Positions 49,961-61,118 of a DNA stretch of 64,000 bases are shown here, in pieces (the stretch's first letter is position 1; the number at the start of each line of letters is the position of its first letter). Location of the stretch: the NCBI RefSeq assembly GCF_001078705.1, contig NZ_CDMW01000001.1:1109541-1173540 (forward strand), read 5' to 3'. This DNA is from Streptococcus sanguinis. Its GTDB lineage: Bacteria; Bacillota; Bacilli; Lactobacillales; Streptococcaceae. The position numbers and the translations under genes were made by a program. The notes beneath the pieces are model-generated. The model was not told the origin of the DNA. It worked only from the letters and a program-made list of their open reading frames with translations, and ran no database searches.

Positions 49961-50025
49961 CTCATTCCTCCTTATATTCTATCTATCATATCAAAAAATA
50001 GTAAAATTTTCTAGTTAATTCTAAA

Positions 50026-50317
50026 TAAAAAGGTCCAATGGACCTTGATTAAAGGAAACTCGCAAGGGCGAGTCTTTATCTGCCACCTAAAACAGCTCCT
50101 ATCTATAGATTAAAAAGGTTCCCCGAACCTTTTTAAAGAGCACTCGCTTAACCGAGTGCTTATCAGCAACCTAAAACAGTCTCCCGAACCTTGGATTAAA
50201 GATAACTCGCAAAAGCGAGCTTTTATCCACAGATTAAAAAGGTCCACTGGATCTTATTAAAGAGAACTCGCAAAGGCAAGTTTTTATCCGTAACCTAAAA
50301 CAGTCCCCCGGACTGTT
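50026..50317. repeat. Array of four composite hairpin repeats
   Basis: This gene-free stretch is built from three recurring modules. A: AAAAAGGTYC.../...GACCTT hairpins near 50027, 50112 and 50237. B: ATTAAAGxxxACTCGC-loop-GCGAGT-xTTTATC hairpins at 50048, 50131, 50195 and 50256. C: ACCTAAAACAGYCYCC near 50085, 50169 and 50293. Spacing of B is 83, 64 and 61 bases. It lies after the sufB stop on the minus strand. It matches no BOX, RUP or SPRITE element I know. The B units resemble terminators. Confidence 0.75.
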
Positions 50318-51700
50318 TTAGCCAACTGAGCCTTCCATACTCATGTTGATGAGTTGGTTGAGTTCGACGGCGTATTCCATTGGTAGTTCTTTGGTAATGG
50401 GTTCCATAAATCCGTTGATAATCATAGCTGTGGCTTCTTCTTCGCTGATGCCGCGACTCATCAGATAGTAGAGCTGATCCTCAGACACTTTGGAAACCTT
50501 GGCTTCATGCTCTAGAGCGACATTGGAATTATGAATTTCATTAAAGGGAATGGTGTCAGAACTGGACTCACCATCCATCAGAATGGTATCACACTCGATA
50601 TGAGATTTGGAGCCTGCACTATTCTTGCCAAAGCGAACCTGACCACGATAGTCCGTCTTACCACCATCCTTGGCCACTGATTTAGAAATTAAGGTACTGG
50701 AAGTCTTAGGTGCATTATGAAAGACCTTACAGCCCGCATCTAAGTGCTGACCATAGTTGGCAAAGGACATAGAGAGGACAGAAGTTCTTGCATTGCGGCC
50801 ATTAAGAATGCTACAAGGATATTTCATATTGACCTTGCTGCCTAAGTTCCCATCAATCCACTCTAAGGTGCCGCCCTCTTCAACAACCCCGCGCTCCGTT
50901 ACGAGGTTATAGACATTGTCTGACCAGTTTTGAATGGTTGTATAGCGGAAAAAGGCATCCTTTTTGACAATGATTTCGACATTTGCGGCATGAAGACTAT
51001 TGCTTGTGTAAGTCGGTGCTGTACAACCCTCAATATACTGGATAGAGCCACCCTCCTCGATAATCATCAAGGAGCGCTCAAACTGGCCGGCATTTTCACC
51101 ATTGATACGAAAATAGGTCTGGACAGGAACTTGGCACTGGACGTTCTTGGGCACATAGATAAAGGTTCCACCGGACCAAACTGCACTATTAAGCGCAGAA
51201 AATTTATGCTCAGCATTTGAAATCACAGTACCAAAATACTGCTTGACCAAGTCTGGATATTCCTGAACAGCCGTATCCGTATCAGTGAAGATAATCCCCA
51301 GCTTGGCAAACTCTTCCTTCATATTATGATAAACCACTTCAGATTCATACTGTGCAACAGCTCCAGATAAAAACTGCTTCTCAGCTTCTGGAATTCCCAG
51401 GCGGTCAAAGGTTTTCTTAATCTCTTCTGGGACTTCATCCCAACTGCGAGCCCGATCTCCGCTTAGCTTCTGATAATAGATAACATCATCAAAGTGAATC
51501 CCTGACAAATCAGGGCCAAAGTCGGGCATAGGTAACTTATGAAAGAGTTCCAAGGAGCGCAGACGATAGTCCAGCATCCACTGGGGCTCATTCTTGATTT
51601 CTGAGATTTCTCGAACAACTTCTTCTGTCAGGCCTTTACCAGTCGAAAAGAGCGGCTTGACATCATCATGAAAGCCAAAAGCATAGTCGCGTTCTTTCAT
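50318..51700 (-). CDS. SufB-family Fe-S assembly scaffold, orphan copy
   Basis: 460 residues with the SufB/SufD beta-helix core: [15 protein letters not shown] near 178, [20 protein letters not shown] near 243, [16 protein letters not shown] near 275 and the C-terminal [23 protein letters not shown] (in parts). Conserved Cys in EGCTAP and SHIECDT and the [11 protein letters not shown] histidines are kept. The usual sufC, sufD, sufS and sufU genes are not next to it; neighbours are a hairpin repeat array and a flavodoxin gene. It is probably a second sufB in this genome. Confidence 0.9.
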
Positions 51701-51787
51701 AGGAACTCCTCCTTTATCTGATGGATAGCGCTTACTTACATTATACTCCTAATCATGAGAATTGTCAGAAAATAACACTTTTCGCAC

Positions 51788-51812
51788 AAAAAAAACGGCC
51801 GCAGCCGCTTTC
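51788..51812 (-). terminator. Flavodoxin terminator
   Basis: Minus strand AGCGGCTGCGGCCGTTTTTTTT: a GC stem with an eight-T run, just after the flavodoxin stop. Confidence 0.75.
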
Positions 51813-51825
51813 TCTATTTATCGCT

Positions 51826-52266
51826 TTAAACTTTATTAACCATGCCTTCCGCAAAAGCTTCCAAGCGTGCAATATCATCATCTTCCGCAGATAGATCCAC
51901 TTTAACGCTTTCTGCACCCTTCACTGCTCCTGTAGCAGCAAAAGCAGCATCAAAGTCATCGACAGCCTTGCAGAATTCATCATAGAAAGTATCGCCCGAA
52001 CCGACCACTCCGTAGACCTTGCCAGACAAATCCAGACCAGACAAGTCTTCGTAGAAGTCCATCATTTCATCCGGCAGCTCACCATCACCATAGGTATAGG
52101 TCGCCACAATTGCAATATCTGCTTCCAAGAAATCTTCTGCATCGACAGTGGTGCACTCGTCCACTTCAACTTCTACATCCAGGTCTCTTAGCTTATCCGC
52201 CACAATATCAGCAATTTCCTCGGTGTTTCCAGTCATGCTGGCAAATACAATTTTCGCTAAGGTCAT
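51826..52266 (-). CDS. Flavodoxin
   Basis: 146 residues from MTLAKIVFASMTGNTEEIAD. The FMN-phosphate loop is SMTGNTEEIA near residue 9; the two aromatic-ring loops are TYTYGDGELPDE near 60 and GSGDTFYDEFC near 90. A low-potential electron carrier. The ATG at 52278 is four codons upstream but poorly placed. Divergent from the DHH phosphoesterase gene. The presence next to the orphan sufB may reflect electron supply, but this is only context. Confidence 0.92.
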   Translation of the reverse strand: MTLAKIVFASMTGNTEEIADIVADKLRDLDVEVEVDECTTVDAEDFLEADIAIVATYTYGDGELPDEMMDFYEDLSGLDLSGKVYGVVGSGDTFYDEFCKAVDDFDAAFAATGAVKGAESVKVDLSAEDDDIARLEAFAEGMVNKV

Positions 52267-52371
52267 AGTTTCCTCCAAATTCTAATCTGCTCTCATTATA
52301 TCATATCTTTTTTATTTTAAAAATAAAAACTCTTATGCTACAATGGGTGAAGAAAGTTGACGAGGTTATTT

Positions 52372-53307
52372 ATGACTCTTTATCATGATATTTTAAGTAA
52401 GATCAAAGAATACGATACTATTATTATCCATCGCCATATGCGGCCAGATCCTGATGCTCTTGGCAGTCAGGTCGGACTGCAAAAGCTGCTTCAGTACCAC
52501 TTCCCAGAAAAGACAATCAAAGCGACAGGCTACGATGAGCCCAATCTCATGTGGTTGGCGCAAATGGACCAAGTTACAGACGAAGAATACCAAGAGGCCC
52601 TAGTCATCGTCTGTGACACTGCTAATACACCCCGCATTGACGACCAACGCTACACGACAGGCGACTTCCTCATCAAAATCGATCATCATCCTGATGATGA
52701 GGTTTACGGAGATATTTCTCTGGTGGATACAAGCTCCAGCAGTGCCAGTGAGATGATTGCTCTCTTTGCCTTTGAAAATGACTTAGGCTTGAGCAAGGAA
52801 GCTGCAGAACTCCTCTATGCTGGCATCATCGGCGACACTGGCCGCTTCCTTTATCCTTCTACTAGCGCCCGCACATTCGAAGTAGCTGCCAAGCTGCGCC
52901 AGTACGATTTCGACTTATCAACCTTATCTCGTAAGATGGACTCTATCAGCCGCCAAGTAGCTAAACTGCAGGGCTATGTCTATGAGCAGTTGGAAATAGA
53001 TGAAAATGGGACTGCGCGGGTCATTTTGCCTCAGGAAGTTTTACAAGCCTATCAACTGACCGATGCTGATACAGCAGCCATTGTCGGGGCACCTGGACGA
53101 ATTGAAGAAGTCGGTCTGTGGGCTATCTTTGTTGAGCAGCCTGAAGGTCACTACCGTGTCCGCATGCGCAGCAAGGTTATTCCTATCAACGGTATTGCGA
53201 AAAATCATCACGGCGGAGGACACCCCTTAGCCAGCGGAGCCAATGCATTTTCTAAAGAAGAAATTGAGCAAATCTACACCGAGATGAAAGAATTGGCAAA
53301 AAAGTAA
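52372..53307 (+). CDS. DHH/DHHA1 phosphoesterase, NrnA/Pde2 type
   Basis: 311 residues from MTLYHDILSKIKEYD. DHH domain: HRHMRPDPDALGS near residue 20, CDTANTPR near 83 and the signature DHHPDDE near 105; the C-terminal DHHA1 domain ends in HHGGGHPLASGA near 282. Stand-alone DHH-DHHA1 proteins degrade nanoRNA, pAp, or pApA from c-di-AMP turnover (pneumococcal Pde2). The substrate preference cannot be fixed by sequence alone. Confidence 0.9.
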   Translation: MTLYHDILSKIKEYDTIIIHRHMRPDPDALGSQVGLQKLLQYHFPEKTIKATGYDEPNLMWLAQMDQVTDEEYQEALVIVCDTANTPRIDDQRYTTGDFLIKIDHHPDDEVYGDISLVDTSSSSASEMIALFAFENDLGLSKEAAELLYAGIIGDTGRFLYPSTSARTFEVAAKLRQYDFDLSTLSRKMDSISRQVAKLQGYVYEQLEIDENGTARVILPQEVLQAYQLTDADTAAIVGAPGRIEEVGLWAIFVEQPEGHYRVRMRSKVIPINGIAKNHHGGGHPLASGANAFSKEEIEQIYTEMKELAKK

Positions 53308-53414
53308 GAAATTAGTCTAAAAGTCTTGTCAAATCAATCAGAATTTGATAAACTATCAAAGTAACTAATCTATGGCTCGCAAAGAGACCATGGCAGAAAG
53401 GAAATTTTTGTAAA

Positions 53415-53657
53415 ATGAGAAAAGATATTCATCCAGAATACCGCCCAGTTGTCTTCATGGACACTTCTACCGGCTACCAGTTCCTTAGTGGTTCAACTAA
53501 GCGTTCAAACGAAACAGTTGAGTTCGAAGGGGAAACTTACCCATTGATCCGTGTAGAAATTTCATCAGACTCACACCCATTCTACACTGGACGTCAAAAG
53601 TTCACTCAAGCAGATGGACGTGTGGATCGTTTCAACAAAAAATACGGTCTCAAATAA
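53415..53657 (+). CDS. rpmE2: 50S ribosomal protein L31 type B
   Basis: 80 residues, [21 protein letters not shown], then the typical [10 protein letters not shown] and [13 protein letters not shown] end. The zinc-binding CxxC of the type A protein is absent, so this is the zinc-free paralogue. Monocistronic; GGAAA precedes the ATG, and a hairpin follows. Confidence 0.96.
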
Positions 53658-53661
53658 TCAT

Positions 53662-53684
53662 AAGCACCAATCGGTGCTTTTTTT
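53662..53684 (+). terminator. rpmE2 terminator
   Basis: AAGCACC / GGTGCTT with a four-base loop and seven T. Confidence 0.9.
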
Positions 53685-53730
53685 GTACCTTCTTTTTTTC
53701 TTATATGCTAAGTTTTAAAAACTTGATAGC

Positions 53731-53763
53731 AAAAGAACTGGGCGAATTACCCAGTTCTTTTTT
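53731..53763. terminator. Terminator of the smaller Tyr-rich gene
   Basis: AAAAGAACTGGG / CCCAGTTCTTTTTT; strong stem flanked by A and T runs, so it can act on both strands. Confidence 0.85.
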
Positions 53764-53799
53764 GAAGAGTTTTTATAAGGGAGAGTTTAATGATGAAGA

Positions 53800-55254
53800 T
53801 TATTTATAATTAAATATCCAATAATAGGTTCCATCTCCTGCCAGTACGCAAGCTACAGCGCCCTCTTTAGCATCTGGGCTGAGCAATAGCTCACGATTGC
53901 CGCTTTTAAGCCATTTAGAGGCTACTACTGACGCGTCATCTTCTCGACGGAAGGTAATCCCTGCATCGCTGTCATAGCTAACAGCTAATTTATTGGCTGT
54001 TGGGAGAGATTGGTTATTGTAGATGTCATCAGACCAGGTTAATTCAGGTAGATTTTGCTCCTTACGAGCAGCATTAATAGCTGCAAAAGCTGCCTTGGCC
54101 TTATCTATATCTGGGAAATTAGAATCTTCTGTTTTCTCAACTCGATAGATAAATTTGATAGAGCCGAATTCTGTTTTTTCATAACCTTTAACGCTGCTGG
54201 TTAGATTAGCAGTCAGAACATAATCTCTAGCCCAAGCATGTTCCACTGCCTGTTTGAAGACATCTTCTTCTTCGATTTCATAAGTTACTTTACATTCGTA
54301 ACCTGCATTATCCAGCATTTTTGGTGCCAACTGCTTCTGAACATAATCGATAAATTCTTCTTTATTCTTAAACGGCAGCGCTTCTCCTGCTTTACCAGTT
54401 CCAACCACATTTTCAGAATAAAGTTTAACACTAGATGCATTATCATCATAATTGTATTCATCGTCTTTTGGATTCGAATGATTATTTGGATCAAGAGCCG
54501 GATCGTCTAAATCTGTTCCATTAAAGAGTTTCCAGCGGTCGCCCATCCACTTGTAATATCCATCAATACCATCAGGATTTTCGTCTCCTAGATGGACTCG
54601 GTAATAATAGGCGCCGTTATCATCTACAAAGCGAGGGTCACTCTTCATCCGAGGATCGTCAGGTCTGTAGAGAGGTTTTGGCAGCTTGCTATAGTCGATA
54701 TTCGGTTTCGGTGCCCAGTCAGGCGTTTCTGGCTTATCCGGCTCAGGCTTAGGTTCTGGTTGTGGTTGTGGATCTGGACTTGGTTCTGGATCCGGAGTTG
54801 GTGTTGGAGATGGTTCCTCTGCCTTCTTCACATAAATCCACTGACCGTTCTGGTAATAATAGTAAGAGCCATCATCCAGTACATAATAGTGATAGCCATT
54901 TTCATAACGGTAATGCGGATCATTTTTTAGCTTGTTAAAGCCATCTTGATAGTAGAGTTCCCACTTGCCATTCCTATAGATATAGTAGTCACCGTCTTTA
55001 TCCTTATAGAAATAAGAGCCGTTCCAATAAAAAATATCAGAACGATACCAAGGATTGAAATATCCCGGATAACGGCCGTAGCCATACCCATAATCATAAC
55101 CGCGCCTGTTATAATAACGATAGCCCGGTTGATAATAATGGGATGGACTCCTACTATATTCGGCGGCCTTAGCCTGTTCAGTGGTTACAAACGTTAAGAG
55201 CGCAGCAGCTCCAATAAGAATAAGTGTTGAAAAATGCTTTCTTTTTAACTTCAT
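53800..55254 (-). CDS. Secreted Tyr-rich protein with aromatic repeats and CAP-like C-terminus (smaller paralogue)
   Basis: 484 residues. Signal peptide to about residue 31 (EQAKAAEYS). Residues 35-70 are rich in Tyr, Gly, Arg. Three aromatic repeat units follow, for example NGSYFYKDKDGDYYIYRNGKW near 75-95 and NGYHYYVLDDGSYYYYQNGQW near 118-138, recalling cell-wall-binding repeats. A Pro/Glu/Asp linker spans about 147-180. The last 110 residues (INAARKEQNLPELTWSDDIY, WLKSGNRELLLSP, DGTYYWIF) look like a degenerate CAP/SCP domain. No LPXTG or membrane anchor. Paralogue of the gene at 55642-57555. Confidence 0.8.
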   Translation of the reverse strand: MKLKRKHFSTLILIGAAALLTFVTTEQAKAAEYSRSPSHYYQPGYRYYNRRGYDYGYGYGRYPGYFNPWYRSDIFYWNGSYFYKDKDGDYYIYRNGKWELYYQDGFNKLKNDPHYRYENGYHYYVLDDGSYYYYQNGQWIYVKKAEEPSPTPTPDPEPSPDPQPQPEPKPEPDKPETPDWAPKPNIDYSKLPKPLYRPDDPRMKSDPRFVDDNGAYYYRVHLGDENPDGIDGYYKWMGDRWKLFNGTDLDDPALDPNNHSNPKDDEYNYDDNASSVKLYSENVVGTGKAGEALPFKNKEEFIDYVQKQLAPKMLDNAGYECKVTYEIEEEDVFKQAVEHAWARDYVLTANLTSSVKGYEKTEFGSIKFIYRVEKTEDSNFPDIDKAKAAFAAINAARKEQNLPELTWSDDIYNNQSLPTANKLAVSYDSDAGITFRREDDASVVASKWLKSGNRELLLSPDAKEGAVACVLAGDGTYYWIFNYK

Positions 55255-55313
55255 GATTATTCACTCCTTTTAGTCATAAAAAGCAATTATTCCTTACCCT
55301 CCCTTTATCTTCC

Positions 55314-55342
55314 ATATTAATCAGTTTTATCCAAAGAGTCAA
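55314..55342 (-). promoter_or_regulatory. Promoter of the smaller Tyr-rich gene
   Basis: Minus strand TTGACT (55337-55342) and TAATAT (55314-55319), 17 bases apart, about 60 bases before the ATG. Confidence 0.6.
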
Positions 55343-55570
55343 ACGATAACACAAATATTATCCTATAATTATACACTCTTTCATTATATGTATAAATTAG
55401 ACTAATTTTTATCTATTTTTATTAAAAAATGCGATTTTTTTAAGCTTTACAACAACCACTGAGCGATTTCATAAATAAGCTTAAACTTGTTTAAAAACAC
55501 TGAATTTTGGAATGAGAACAGATTCCAAATTCATTATGATGTTCGATTGAATATGTACATTAATACACAC

Positions 55571-55609
55571 AAAAACCCCTGAGGCAAATCAAGTCTGCTC
55601 TCAGAGGTT
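55571..55609 (-). terminator. Terminator of the larger Tyr-rich gene
   Basis: Minus strand AACCTCTGAG / CTCAGGGGTT with a long loop and TTTTTGTG after it. Confidence 0.7.
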
Positions 55610-55641
55610 AAGGGTACTTTGTTTAGGAAGATACTTCCTTA

Positions 55642-57555
55642 TTATTTGTAGCTGTAAGCCCAGTAGTATACGCCATTTCCGTCTACAACTGTCGCTACTG
55701 CACCTTCAGTTACGTTAGGATCAAGAAGCAAGTCTCTCAGACCGCTGTTAGCCCATTTCTTAACGACAACAGAGGCATCCTCATCACGACGTCCAACAAA
55801 GCCTGAGCTATCGTATTGACGTGAGATTTCATTTACTTTTGGAAGTGCTTGATTTTGATAAATGTCTTCTGACCAAGTCAACTCTTTCAAGCCTTGAGCT
55901 TTACGCTCTTCATTGATTTTAGCGAAAGCTTCTTTAGCTTTTGAAACATAGTCATAGTTTGTATCGTTTGTTGCTTCAACACGGTAAACAAACTTAACAT
56001 AACCAAATTCTACATCACTGTATTTCTTATCCTCAACACCACTCTTAAGGTTTGCAATCAAGACATAATCCTTAGCATATGGGTTTTCTTTGGTTTTTTC
56101 AAAGATTTCTGGATCTTCGATTTCCCATTCAACTTTGGCATCCCATCCTGCGTTATCAAGGAACTTAGGATTCATCTTTTCGATAACGTAGTTCTTGAAC
56201 TCTTCAACGTTCTTGAATGGCAGCGGCTGACCAGCTTTAGCCGTTGTCACTAGGTTAGTTGAGTACAATTTCACGCTAGAGTCTTTATCACTGTACATGT
56301 ATTCATCATCAGCAGTGTTTTCGTGAAGTTTTGGATCAAGAGCTGGATCGTTTGGATCAGTCATACCTTGCAGTTTCCATTTGTCACCAAACCATTTCCA
56401 ATACGCTGAGTATCCTGTACGTTCTGAATCAGAAGGCACGTAGTAGTAATGAGTGCTTCCGTCGTAGTAGTAGTTTGGATCTTTCTCAAGAGCTTTGTCA
56501 CCTGGTTTTCCAGACGGGTAAATCAATTTTGGAACTCGTCCATTTGGTGCCCATGTCAAGTGTTCAAGACCTTCTGCTGGTTTTTCAACATATGGAGGAA
56601 TTTGATCTTCACTTGGTTTATCAGTCGTTACCAAACCAGGAGTCTCTGGCACAGCAGGTGTTGTTGGAGTTTCTGGTTTTGGTTCTGCTGGTTGCTCTGG
56701 TTTCGGAGCAAATGGATCAAACTCACCTTCTGCACCGCCAATTGGAGGATTTTCTGGCAAATCAACACTTGGTACCTCAGGTTTTGGTTCTGCTGGAGCT
56801 GTTGGTTGTTCCGGTCTATCATTTGGAGCTGGAGTTGGTTGCTCTGGTTCCGCTGGTGTCGGAGTTGGAACTTCTGGTTTTGGTTCTTCCGGCTGGCTTG
56901 GAGTTGTTGGATTAGTTGAGTTATCAGCAGAATCCTTAACAAACACCCACTTGCCATTTTTATAGTAGTAATAGTCACCATTATCCAACACATAGTAATG
57001 ATAACCATTTTCATAACGATAATGCGGATCGTTTTCCAAGTTGTTATTGGATGTGCTGTTATTGTTAGTATTTGTCAATGGTTTCCACTCACCATCACGA
57101 TAGATGCGGTAAGAACCATCCGTCATACGGTAGTAATGGTTACCATTCCAGTAAATGTAGTTTTCATCATTTGCGAGATTGTTGTAATTATTCCAACCAT
57201 TATATCCGTAGTTGTTGCTATAGTTGTAATTCCAGTTGTTATAGCCTGGATAATAGTTATTATAACCATAGTTGTAATTATAGCCATTGTAGCCATAGTT
57301 ATAGCCTGGATAATAGTTATTGTAACCATAGTTGTAATTATAGCCATTGTAGCCGTAGTTATAGCCATAATTGTAGTTATTGTAACCATAATTATAATTG
57401 TTATAGCCGCCATTCCAGTAATTATAGCCTGGTTGATAGTAATTATAACCATAACCATAATCTTGCGCCTCAACATTATTCACAGCAGCGATTGCTGGAA
57501 TAAGAGCTGCAGCTGCTACAACAGATCTTGATAAGAGTCTGAAACGATTGTTCAT
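55642..57555 (-). CDS. Secreted Tyr/Asn/Gly-rich protein with aromatic repeats and CAP-like C-terminus (larger paralogue)
   Basis: 637 residues. Signal peptide to about residue 30 (NNVEA). Residues 32-125 are almost only Tyr, Asn and Gly with scattered Pro and Trp, built of YGYNNYYPGYN-type units. Aromatic repeats follow near 133-157 (NGNHYYRMTDGSYRIYRDGEW) and 178-205. A Pro/Glu linker with repeated PKPE and PEQP runs from about 213 to 330. The rest aligns with the smaller paralogue and ends in a degenerate CAP-like domain (INEERKAQGLKELTWSEDIY, GNGVYYWAYSYK). No sorting signal. It has its own promoter with a long leader. Confidence 0.8.
   Translation of the reverse strand: MNNRFRLLSRSVVAAAALIPAIAAVNNVEAQDYGYGYNYYQPGYNYWNGGYNNYNYGYNNYNYGYNYGYNGYNYNYGYNNYYPGYNYGYNGYNYNYGYNNYYPGYNNWNYNYSNNYGYNGWNNYNNLANDENYIYWNGNHYYRMTDGSYRIYRDGEWKPLTNTNNNSTSNNNLENDPHYRYENGYHYYVLDNGDYYYYKNGKWVFVKDSADNSTNPTTPSQPEEPKPEVPTPTPAEPEQPTPAPNDRPEQPTAPAEPKPEVPSVDLPENPPIGGAEGEFDPFAPKPEQPAEPKPETPTTPAVPETPGLVTTDKPSEDQIPPYVEKPAEGLEHLTWAPNGRVPKLIYPSGKPGDKALEKDPNYYYDGSTHYYYVPSDSERTGYSAYWKWFGDKWKLQGMTDPNDPALDPKLHENTADDEYMYSDKDSSVKLYSTNLVTTAKAGQPLPFKNVEEFKNYVIEKMNPKFLDNAGWDAKVEWEIEDPEIFEKTKENPYAKDYVLIANLKSGVEDKKYSDVEFGYVKFVYRVEATNDTNYDYVSKAKEAFAKINEERKAQGLKELTWSEDIYQNQALPKVNEISRQYDSSGFVGRRDEDASVVVKKWANSGLRDLLLDPNVTEGAVATVVDGNGVYYWAYSYK
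57241..57396. repeat. 60-bp tandem repeat inside the larger Tyr-rich gene
   Basis: 57241-57300 and 57301-57360 differ at only two positions; 57361-57396 is a third, partial copy. Each unit encodes 20 residues of Tyr, Asn, Gly and Pro. Near-identity of the copies points to recent duplication and likely copy-number variation between strains. Confidence 0.9.
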
Positions 57556-57828
57556 ATTAATTAAACCTCCAAAGTGACCAACATCACTTCATATTTTTGT
57601 GGGGGGAATTTATCTTTTGTGCACAACTTCATAAAAAAGAATTTCACGAAAATACTGCCAGCTGACAGTTGACTACTCCATCATTATCAAACGCAAAAAC
57701 GAATCACTAGTTAGTGAATCTACCTGATTAAAGGTTGCACATAAATGTTTTTATAGCATTTGATTTAGAAAGAAAGAAGTCAATATGCTTGAAAATACTT
57801 TTTTATGCATATCTCACCCTCGAGATGA

Positions 57829-57857
57829 ATTATAGCACAAGAAATTTTTGAATGCAA
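57829..57857 (-). promoter_or_regulatory. Promoter of the larger Tyr-rich gene
   Basis: Minus strand TTGCAT (57852-57857), 17 bases, TATAAT (57829-57834), preceded by TG (extended -10). The predicted transcript start is about 265 bases before the ATG at 57555. Confidence 0.8.
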
Positions 57858-58084
57858 GCATTTTGGTTAACAAGGTGTAAATTATTTTTATGGGTAATTT
57901 TTTATAGTTCGTATTTTTGTTTGTTTGTTATTATTAAATGCTGATAAATAATTACATTCTGCTTTTTATCCGAACTAAAAGTTCGTAATAATGTTTATAA
58001 TTTGGTTTACATACTGTAAATTATTTTTGTTTTTTCTTTATAAAAACATTTTTCAGAGAGAAATTCTATTTTCCTTATTTTTGC

Positions 58085-58145
58085 TTTAAGTTTATTTTAA
58101 GCTTATATTAAGCCTTTTTTAAGTTTTTCTTAAGTTTGGTTTAAG
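58085..58145 (+). promoter_or_regulatory. Six NTTAAG hexamers at exact 11-bp spacing (CiaR-type half-site array)
   Basis: Hexamers TTTAAG, TTTAAG, ATTAAG, TTTAAG, CTTAAG and TTTAAG start at 58085, 58096, 58107, 58118, 58129 and 58140. The streptococcal response regulator CiaR binds NTTAAG-N5-WTTAAG, which is the same hexamer and the same period, normally in two copies. Six in perfect register give up to five overlapping boxes. The identity of the binding protein is inferred. Confidence 0.75.
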
Positions 58146-58227
58146 AATCAAAGAATCTGTTGCCAACTTTCTTCGTTATGGGTTTTTATTTATATTAATG
58201 AATAACTAATGCTGAATAGTAAAAAAT

Positions 58228-58262
58228 ACTAGAAGCATTTATTCCGGCTTCTAGTATTTTTG
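58228..58262. terminator. Strong hairpin terminator after the cupin gene
   Basis: AATACTAGAAGC / GCTTCTAGTATT with a ten-base loop, followed by T's on the plus strand and by A-to-T runs on the minus. It ends the envelope operon and could also end a plus-strand small RNA. Confidence 0.8.
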
Positions 58263-58268
58263 TATTTA

Positions 58269-58559
58269 TTAATATTTGAGTTGTTTGATAACCAAGAGGT
58301 GGCTATCTTCTTCTCCAACCAAGCTGTGTGACTCATTGGGTTCCATCGTTAGAAAGGAACCTGCCACCAGCCGTACAGTATGCTCTCCAGCAGAAAAGCT
58401 TACATTTCCTGATAAACAAACGACTGTTACTAGTGCATCAGCACTGTGCTCTGGTACTTCTTTTCCTTTAGCAAGATGCAGATGATGGATGATCCTGCCT
58501 TCTTCCTGCACAGGTGTTTCTGCAAAATCATTATTGGGATTGGTAACAAAAAATTTCAT
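58269..58559 (-). CDS. Small cupin-domain protein
   Basis: 96 residues forming one cupin barrel: HHLHLAKGKEVPEHSADALVTVV supplies a metal-type motif (HxHx.. E..H) near 25-40 and SFLTMEPNESHSLVG the second motif near 68-82. Such single-domain cupins bind metals or small ligands; function unknown. Last gene of the operon, 32 bases after the carboxypeptidase gene. Confidence 0.82.
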   Translation of the reverse strand: MKFFVTNPNNDFAETPVQEEGRIIHHLHLAKGKEVPEHSADALVTVVCLSGNVSFSAGEHTVRLVAGSFLTMEPNESHSLVGEEDSHLLVIKQLKY

Positions 58560-58591
58560 TTTCTTCCTCCTTGTAACGGATAATAGGATGA

Positions 58592-59383
58592 TTATTCTTC
58601 GTAATCACCGCCAGTAATGCCGAAATATTCTTCTAAAGATTTGCCTGATTGAGCAATTTCCTTGGCTTCTTGACCAATATAGCGTAGATGCCAGCTTTCA
58701 GGCATGTAGCCAGTTGAATCTTCCTTGCCTTCTAGATAGCGAATGATAAAACCGTATTTATAAGCGTTGTCTAAGAGCCACTGACTGGCTCCTACTTCTT
58801 GCACAAGGTTACCACTCTTATCAATCAAGTCAAAAGCTAAGCCAGTCTGGTGCTCACTGTAGCCTGGTCGAGCCGAATAGCGATCTGCTGCTGATTTACC
58901 GTCCTGATTGACATAGTTTTGATAGAGCTCGGTCTGAGTATCATAGCTGCGAAAGCCACTGTATTGGTCGCTGATGGCATAACCTTGTGCCTTCATGTCA
59001 GCAATCAGTTTGAGCAATTCTGCTTTAGCAATCGCATTCTCACCTGGGTTATAGGAAGCAGACAAAGGGTAGTGTTTGTTGACAACAAGAATCTCATCAT
59101 ATTTCCCTTTGACACTGTAGTAGCTGCCGTTATAAGAAACATTTTGATCAAGAGTTTTGGCCTCGTGATTTTGCTCCTTTTTAGTATCAGTGTTATCTGA
59201 AGATGTTGTCGTATCTTGGCTAGAGTTTTTGTCTTTTTCAGCATCTTGTTTTTTAACCGTACTAGTTGAGCTAGCCGCTTGTTTATTAGAGCTATCTCCA
59301 GTAGTGTCTTTACCAGACGAACACGCGCCTAGAACAAGAACAGATGCTGCAAGAAAAATTAGTTTACTGTATTTCATTGTCAT
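58592..59383 (-). CDS. VanY/LdcB-type D-alanyl-D-alanine (L,D/D,D) carboxypeptidase lipoprotein
   Basis: 263 residues. Lipobox VLGAC near residue 20, a Ser/Thr/Asp/Lys-rich spacer, then a peptidase M15B domain: SGFRSYDTQTELY near 147, the zinc motif SEHQTGLAFDL near 178 and the second His in ESWHLRYIG near 235. It trims peptidoglycan stem peptides outside the membrane. The first ATG (59383) follows AAGG and lies five bases after the stop of the TcaA-like gene, so the pair is coupled. Confidence 0.9.
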   Translation of the reverse strand: MTMKYSKLIFLAASVLVLGACSSGKDTTGDSSNKQAASSTSTVKKQDAEKDKNSSQDTTTSSDNTDTKKEQNHEAKTLDQNVSYNGSYYSVKGKYDEILVVNKHYPLSASYNPGENAIAKAELLKLIADMKAQGYAISDQYSGFRSYDTQTELYQNYVNQDGKSAADRYSARPGYSEHQTGLAFDLIDKSGNLVQEVGASQWLLDNAYKYGFIIRYLEGKEDSTGYMPESWHLRYIGQEAKEIAQSGKSLEEYFGITGGDYEE

Positions 59384-59387
59384 AATA

Positions 59388-61118
59388 TCAACCTTCTGAA
59401 ACTTCAAGATTATAGATTACAAAAGAATCCCCGCTAGGTTTCAAGTAATAAGTCTTATTTTTACGATTTACACTATTTGGAGTGCTATCAACATAGTGGA
59501 CTGTATAGTCCTCATATGTTGTCACGATATAGGAACCATTTTCTTCCTTGATTTCGCGGATATCCAAAGCTCCTGGCTCATAATAGTTAATTTTCGCTTT
59601 CTTAACACCACCACCAGTGGTCCACTCAACCATTTCTCGATATACTGCACTAGAGGTATCGTAGTATTGAGAATAGTTGTTGCTCCTGTTAGAAACTGAG
59701 CTGAAAACAGCACTGCGGTAGTCATTAAGGAAAGTAGAGACTTTTGCCTTTTGAGCCTCAACCTTTTTCGCTTCTTCGTTCTTTTCTCTAATCTTAGAAA
59801 CCACTTCCTTAGGAAGAGATAATTTCACATTCGTGGTATCATCTTCCACAATCACTGTCTCTTTATTGGTAGTAAAGGTAGTATCAGAGATAGTAAACTT
59901 GGCATAAATTTCAAGTTCTTGATAAGGAACAAGCTGCAACTCAGGGGTCAAACTGCTACCACTTTCTTTACCATTAACAACGATTTTAATATCTGTTGCT
60001 TTTGAAGTTTCAGAAGGCATAGTAATTTTTAGCTGTTTCTTTTCAGACTTGAGATCCAGTTTGATCTCATTATCTTTAGCCGTAGCTAAATCAAGCTGAA
60101 CCTTACTCTCTACATCTCCAACATCCGTCTTACCTTTGAGAGTAAAGTCTTGTTTGATGAAGTGATATTCACCCAATTCAGTGTCTGTGTTTTTCTTAAG
60201 GGTAATAGTTTTTTTCTCACTAGGTTTAATGGTAGCATTATCTAAATTAGTATTGACTTTAACTTTAACTGGATAGGAAACCATCTGATATTCCTGGAAA
60301 ATACCAAATTTCTTACTCTTTTCAGTAACACCTAAAATCTTATTATTATTGTCATCAATATAAGCAGATTTGCCATTTGACTCAACAATGTTATCTAGCT
60401 CAGTTTCGAGATTGATTTTTTGGCTCTCTAGGTGCTCAACCAGTGCTCTTGCTTCAGCACGTGTCCACCTATCGGATTGAGTAGAGAGAAGACTTGCCAC
60501 TTCATCAAAGTCTTTACTAGAGACTGCTTTTGCAAAATGGTCTGTAACTACTTTAACTCCGGTTATAGAGTTTAGATAGAAGAAAGCTCCAATCAAAGCG
60601 GCAACTAGAAGGGTTGGACCTCCAATCATGATTGCTTGCTTCTTTGATATTCTCTTTTTAGCCTTTTTTACCGGTTTCTGTGGTAATTGCGAATCGAGCA
60701 GTTCAGATCGGATAGGTAGGTTAGAGAATCCTTGGCTCTTAGCTTCTGCAAATTCTTCTTTGGTAGGTTTTCGACCAATATTATTTTCAAAAGCTTGCAG
60801 CCAATTCTGGCGGAGTTCTTCATATTGGCTAGACTCAGAAGAACCTTGCTTCTCATCTTGGGAAGATGGTTGAATTGATTCTTCTGTGACAGAATCTTCA
60901 GAAGGCTTCTCCTGAACAATATTTTGATTCTCAGAAGCTTCATCAGTAGTATTTTCTACTGACGGAGTTTCTGTGGTTGCTTCCTCTGCTTCGCCTGCAA
61001 TCTCCTTAATTTTTTTTGGATCAAAGTTAGATTGTTTGCCGGCTAGAAACTCACTTGCAGTTGGTTTTCGACCAATTACTTTTTCAAAGAGATCAACCCA
61101 TTTTTCTTTTGTTGCCAT
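59388..61118 (-). CDS. TcaA-like membrane protein with two N-terminal W..FE..GRKPT motifs
   Basis: 576 residues. In place of the N-terminal zinc ribbon of TcaA/YvbJ proteins it has two copies of a short motif, KWVDLFEKVIGRKPTASEF at 6-24 and NWLQAFENNIGRKPTKEEF near 109-127, separated by an acidic spacer. A basic KKAKKRISKK stretch and one membrane helix near 165-185 follow. The extracellular part contains an NTF2-like region (VVTDHFAKAVSSKDF), beta domains, and a second NTF2-like end (DYTVHYVDSTPNS). TcaA proteins affect glycopeptide and wall stress responses in staphylococci; the role here is inferred. Confidence 0.75.
   Translation of the reverse strand: MATKEKWVDLFEKVIGRKPTASEFLAGKQSNFDPKKIKEIAGEAEEATTETPSVENTTDEASENQNIVQEKPSEDSVTEESIQPSSQDEKQGSSESSQYEELRQNWLQAFENNIGRKPTKEEFAEAKSQGFSNLPIRSELLDSQLPQKPVKKAKKRISKKQAIMIGGPTLLVAALIGAFFYLNSITGVKVVTDHFAKAVSSKDFDEVASLLSTQSDRWTRAEARALVEHLESQKINLETELDNIVESNGKSAYIDDNNNKILGVTEKSKKFGIFQEYQMVSYPVKVKVNTNLDNATIKPSEKKTITLKKNTDTELGEYHFIKQDFTLKGKTDVGDVESKVQLDLATAKDNEIKLDLKSEKKQLKITMPSETSKATDIKIVVNGKESGSSLTPELQLVPYQELEIYAKFTISDTTFTTNKETVIVEDDTTNVKLSLPKEVVSKIREKNEEAKKVEAQKAKVSTFLNDYRSAVFSSVSNRSNNYSQYYDTSSAVYREMVEWTTGGGVKKAKINYYEPGALDIREIKEENGSYIVTTYEDYTVHYVDSTPNSVNRKNKTYYLKPSGDSFVIYNLEVSEG

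Follow-up and report, generated by a model that had tools for sequence, protein, structure and literature searches.

Genes and features at the locus

The array considered here lies in an intergenic region of the Streptococcus sanguinis genome (2.31 Mb, single contig), within a window (the whole stretch of DNA that was analysed) of 64,000 nucleotides. The genes and features of the locus, with their positions in the window, are as follows.

53800..55254, minus strand: gene of a CAP-domain protein (484 aa; CAP domain by Pfam), next downstream
55642..57555, minus strand: gene of a Tyr-rich secreted protein (637 aa), the neighbour with its 5' end facing the array and the probable target
57829..57857, minus strand: promoter of the Tyr-rich gene, TTGCAT-N17-TATAAT, conserved in all 10 alleles
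58085..58101, plus strand: CiaR-type box 1, TTTAAG-TTTAT-TTTAAG, no variation in its 17 columns across 10 genomes
58107..58123, plus strand: CiaR-type box 2, ATTAAG-CCTTT-TTTAAG, no variation in either TTAAG or in the T that opens its second hexamer
58129..58145, plus strand: CiaR-type box 3, CTTAAG-TTTGG-TTTAAG, likewise constant in each TTAAG and in the T that opens its second hexamer
58146..58159, plus strand: block adjoining the array, AATCAAAGAATCTG; of its 14 columns, 2 differ among the 10 genomes
58221..58261, no strand assigned: inverted repeat with runs of A and T on its flanks
58269-58559, minus strand: small cupin gene, 3' end toward the array

Of the neighbouring genes, only the Tyr-rich one has its 5' end toward the array, which is situated approximately 520-530 bp before its start codon. 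Its product had been described as a surface protein in the initial annotation; a protein of 637 aa with a signal-peptide-like start (judged by eye) is indeed encoded, but no Pfam match was obtained at E 0.001, and nothing relevant was found in the literature on the gene product. The promoter assigned to 57829-57857 is present on the minus strand, 227 bp from the array edge in this genome. If this promoter is used, the 5' leader of the Tyr-rich gene would be approximately 270 nt in length. A leader ORF (MHKKVFSSIL..., 57751-57810, minus strand) is found close behind the promoter and encodes 19 aa in nine of the 10 alleles and 16 aa in one.

Between the array and the promoter is a dyad, TTTACA-N3-TGTAAA (58006-58020), which is kept in the group alignment; a similar, imperfect copy at 57867-57881, just upstream of the promoter, could form an operator pair with it. 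As a shared operator the dyad was rejected: its one other copy in the genome is in a region of small ORFs, suggesting no regulator. The inverted repeat at 58221..58261 was recognised by eye, is present in the aligned relatives where the sequence is unmasked, and is absent from the list of the simple scan; it probably terminates the transcript of the upstream cupin gene and would be readable in both directions.

Layout of the array and chance expectation

Six NTTAAG hexamers, as originally reported and read here directly from the sequence, start at 58085, 58096, 58107, 58118, 58129 and 58140, each step being 11 bp; their first bases are, in order, T, T, A, T, C and T. TRF recovered the same region as an 11-bp array (78% matches, zero indels). 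Four of the five adjacent hexamer pairs fit TTAAG-N5-WTTAAG, and three non-overlapping pairs fit the direct-repeat pattern NTTAAG-N5-WTTAAG, the second hexamer being TTTAAG in 10/10 array-bearing genomes. The pattern TTAAG-N5-TTTAAG was matched three times in the 64-kb window against 0.13 expected, and three matches were reached in 0 of 100 shuffles. Moreover, the array is the only chain of at least five copies of any 5-mer (periods 8-14) in the window; the longest period-11 chain was two or three in 30 windows simulated with an order-2 Markov model (AAAAA and TTTTT left out). A first-order estimate for six copies in register, over 4.6 million positions, was approximately 4e-11 under the window composition or 2e-8 under the local composition.

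Conservation within the S. sanguinis group

The best relatives at the array locus were S. sanguinis strains. The group sample comprised 12 genomes (G000 and G185-G195), chosen as neighbours of the array bearers in the genome list. Six hexamers in register were found in 10 of the 12, and hexamers scattered and out of phase, which had been named in the initial annotation as refuting its reading, were not seen among these 12. The column counts below are based on the 10 genomes (8 distinct alleles), without G189, whose contig stops short of the array, and without G187, in which the array is absent; the N in G188 was ignored at its column. The Tyr-rich gene was present in 11/11 group genomes searched besides G000. 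In G187, the gene and its promoter are present and the array is absent outside 50 masked bases; the upstream sequence of this genome is identical to that of S. sanguinis SK49 (L017). Among other species (S. parasanguinis, S. oralis, S. australis, S. rubneri, S. gordonii and others), no hexamer pair in register was found at loci carrying a relative of the gene, with flanks of up to 4 kb. Thus, the gene can do without the array, because G187 and the other-species loci have the former and not the latter.

Variation within the array is unevenly distributed. No variable column was found among the 30 columns of TTAAG, as against 12 of the 31 other array columns (Fisher p 1.3e-4, an optimistic value given that the strains are related). 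The first base was T in 10/10 genomes for hexamers 1, 2, 4 and 6, and was variable for hexamers 3 and 5. In box 2, variation is confined to the opening base (that of hexamer 3) and a single spacer column; in box 3, to the opening base (that of hexamer 5) and two spacer columns. Variable columns accounted for 9 of 12 between the boxes and 3 of 18 within them (p 0.002, to be taken as a guide only for related strains). Because the variation falls mostly between the hexamer pairs, in a two-step rhythm, the array was divided into three NTTAAG-N5-TTTAAG boxes 22 bp apart, and is probably best taken as a head-to-tail series of three CiaR boxes of 22 bp. The unit in the initial annotation should be modified in this respect: the register of six stands, but in place of six equal hexamers the column variation indicates, probably, three 22-bp boxes. 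The array is probably in use, judging from the alignment, since the word is constant while the letters between its copies drift.

Distribution across the genus

Among 284 genomes of the genus, six hexamers in register were found in the 10 group genomes only, and one other genome has four; the six-hexamer form away from a promoter is thus confined, among the 284, to the array bearers. At least three hexamers in register were found in 20/284 genomes. Outside the S. sanguinis group, runs of at least three were matched 13 times, in 10 genomes, and the backwards control 12 times, in 11 genomes, so the mere existence of these three-hexamer runs says little. They occupy 12 places, of which 11 were read (G218:C130 was left out). 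TANNNT follows the last hexamer at exactly 10 nt in four of these 11 three- or four-hexamer runs, namely those of G118 (L091) and G140 (L093), which are orthologous and near purA, G208 (L104), and G218 (L105, four hexamers). In a few genomes, then, runs beyond two hexamers sit at CiaR-type promoters; these four loci may represent an extended form of the CiaR-type promoter in streptococci outside the S. sanguinis group.

These data bear on the view that the array is a neutral low-complexity repeat. The local sequence is AT-rich, as such a repeat would be; however, TTAAG is constant between spacers that are unlike one another, none of the 30 simulated windows contained a chain this long, and at least four hexamers in register occur in 11/284 genomes, against 1/284 for the pattern read backwards. 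A neutral origin is therefore considered very improbable.

CiaR and its boxes in this genome

The published CiaR site is TTTAAG-N5-TTTAAG, and the recognition helix of S. sanguinis CiaR is given as VVEVYVSKIRKKL (PMC3091779). Locus L084 encodes CiaR (224 aa; Response_reg and Trans_reg_C domains), the sole carrier of the helix VVEVYVSKIRKKL among the nine OmpR-type regulators encoded. The two-hexamer pattern was matched 12 times in the genome (four of these in the array) against three times backwards; some boxes elsewhere in the genome may therefore be chance matches. Outside the array, eight perfect boxes were found, or nine with one more seen in L010, and TANNNT is located 10 nt downstream at six of the nine boxes in these eight loci. 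Boxes with TANNNT include those at htrA (L012), at two loci near ruvB (L009 and L010) and at one near purA (L008), where the usual layout, box-N10-TATACT/TATAAT, is observed; the sixth, in L011, is weak (TAGGCT). The L011 box (L011:1500-1516) is on the opposite strand approximately 105 bp upstream of a gene for a PilB/GspE-type ATPase, and CiaR may thus act directly on pilus genes. Another perfect two-hexamer box, just past xerS (L002:1500-1516), has no -10 and may be a chance match.

In an S. agalactiae csRNA promoter, activity was strongly reduced when the second hexamer was replaced and was kept after a TTTAAG to TGTAAG change (PMC9603419). Because TGTAAG stayed active in that species, strict hexamer identity is not needed at every promoter.

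The assignment to CiaR made in the initial annotation is retained in part: CiaR is the best candidate (4/5 pairs fit, CiaR is encoded and the hexamers are constrained), but the array has no CiaR-type promoter. The OmpR/PhoB family in general uses direct repeats of 11 bp, and the array might instead serve VicR, CovR or another of the nine OmpR-type regulators. The VicR motif is TGTWAH and the CovR motif is ATTARA; both fit worse, whereas TTTAAG-N5-TTTAAG is the very sequence tested for CiaR, which makes another regulator distinctly unlikely.

Promoter and transcript signals at the array

In a CiaR-activated promoter, the -10 element is placed 10 nt after the second hexamer. At the array, this place is occupied by TCTGTT, and across the alleles by TCTG[TAC]T, with no A at position 2. 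The array is intergenic with an inverted repeat further on, as for a csRNA gene, yet the -10 is absent; a canonical CiaR promoter or csRNA on the plus strand was accordingly rejected. Rfam gave nothing above the gathering score in 50000-60000. The minus-strand TAGAAT previously noted beside the array is present in this genome but absent from 9/9 other alleles (in three, CAGAAT is found at a distance of 8 bases from the array), and it was rejected as a -10 because the exact form occurs in this genome alone. Since no CiaR-type promoter is present at the array, distal action, titration or an unseen transcript are the options.

The last of these would be an unannotated transcript driven or blocked by the array, either a plus-strand RNA ending at 58221-58261 or a minus-strand RNA starting inside the array. 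Consistent with it, the block at 58146-58159 is well kept, with the inverted repeat 75 bp further; a promoter-like TTAAAA-N17-TAAAAT lies inside the array on the strand of the Tyr-rich gene in 10/10 alleles; and a plus-strand TTTACA-N16-TATTRT, approximately 40 bp before the array and reading into it, is found in 5/10. Shuffled sequence yields promoter-like matches of this kind at least as often (4.6 versus 3 here), and TTAAAA-N17-TAAAAT is made of array letters. Against this transcript are also TCTG[TAC]T at the -10 place, the negative Rfam result and the lack, in the 10 alleles, of any plus-strand promoter-like match over the first 130 bp past the right edge of the array. We consider it quite improbable.

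Possible distal control or titration

Counted from the last TTAAG, the -35 of the Tyr-rich promoter is 217 bp away in eight, 218 bp in one and 228 bp in one of the 10 genomes; from the array edge the value is one bp less. (Spacings for G185, G186, G188 and G193 were measured on L015, L013, L022 and L014, respectively, which share the array and 60-base flanks, and then on their own loci.) The 228-bp spacing belongs to this genome, in which the 11-bp excess consists of two insertions; its agreement with one helical turn is suggestive.

In the explanation that we prefer, the three tandem CiaR boxes would form a high-occupancy site controlling the Tyr-rich gene at a distance, from the opposite strand. 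Up to three CiaR dimers would be placed side by side, perhaps cooperatively, on the three plus-strand boxes of the 22-bp head-to-tail repeat; with an 11-bp step against a helix of approximately 10.5 bp, the drift would be slow and the dimers would lie near one face. The site would then act from approximately 217-228 bp on the Tyr-rich promoter. On the present sequence comparisons, we judge this statement as a whole to be evenly poised, and binding of CiaR in itself to be more probable than the whole. Counting against distal control are a distance far above the 10 nt of canonical boxes or the 25 bp of the dlt box (see below), an 11-bp spacing difference that depends on two indels of a single genome, and the presence of the gene without the array in G187 (outside its masked bases) and in other species. 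The TTAAAA-N17-TAAAAT match within the array could be a nearer target.

The main rival of distal control is titration, in which the array, as a decoy without a promoter, would hold several CiaR dimers and buffer CiaR-P or set the threshold for the csRNA and htrA promoters. The intact boxes, the absence of a -10 at the CiaR spacing and the far position of the nearest conserved promoter would all suit a decoy, as would the addition of three boxes to just eight perfect ones elsewhere (nine with the extra box of L010; six with TANNNT). However, a decoy needs no fixed neighbour, and the spacing between array and promoter is near constant in 10 genomes (which shared descent also fits); furthermore, three dimers are few relative to the typical copy number of a regulator. 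Titration appears unlikely. As for the broader proposal, that the array is a multi-dimer CiaR site of one S. sanguinis lineage which either acts over more than 200 bp on the secreted-protein gene or titrates CiaR-P for the csRNA/htrA threshold, it is less likely than not, and we offer it tentatively.

With its triple box conserved and no conserved promoter close by, the array would have CiaR working in another way, and a secreted protein would be added to the reach of CiaR in this oral species. CiaRH affects competence, biofilm and stress responses in streptococci. The S. sanguinis ciaR mutant is reported to form a fragile biofilm (PMC5719415). The search for CiaR sites in that study covered 200 bp upstream of each ORF; the array would be missed there because its distance from the start codon exceeds this range.

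Comparison with known systems

The CiaR sites in the published accounts considered here are single boxes at promoters. By title and abstract, no CiaR array of more than two hexamers was found in the literature on CiaR sites, tandem repeats and titration, a search on tandem OmpR-type sites returned no matching papers, and neither a distal multi-dimer CiaR site nor a built-in CiaR-P titrator is described in the passages considered. Compared with the CiaR box of the csRNA and htrA promoters, the array has the same hexamer, 5-base spacer and 11-bp register, and its units fit NTTAAG-N5-TTTAAG. It differs in having three tandem boxes where the known promoters have one, and in being without a -10 at 10 nt, approximately 217-228 bp from the nearest conserved promoter, which is on the opposite strand.

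The tandem pho boxes of PhoB/PhoP-type regulators consist of 22-bp head-to-tail units at the promoter. As in the array, each unit comprises two 11-bp direct repeats, and several dimers are aligned; the half-site differs, and pho boxes are located directly at the promoter.

CiaR sites on the opposite strand have been reported for pneumococcal dlt (up) and manLMN (down) (PMC6560143). Five of 12 dlt loci were scanned; boxes with at most one mismatch were found in three of the five, and none in the dlt locus of this genome (L123). In two other genomes, an opposite-strand box with one mismatch precedes dlt, 25 bp ahead of a TTGAAA that resembles a -35 (promoter assigned by eye). The boxes of dlt and manLMN are single and near the promoter, approximately 25 bp before the -35 in dlt and just after the -10 in manL of this genome. 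As in the array, the box is on the strand opposite the gene in both systems, and the dlt box of those two genomes is, like the array, upstream of the promoter. This dlt box is the closest precedent for the array, at a ninth of the array's distance.
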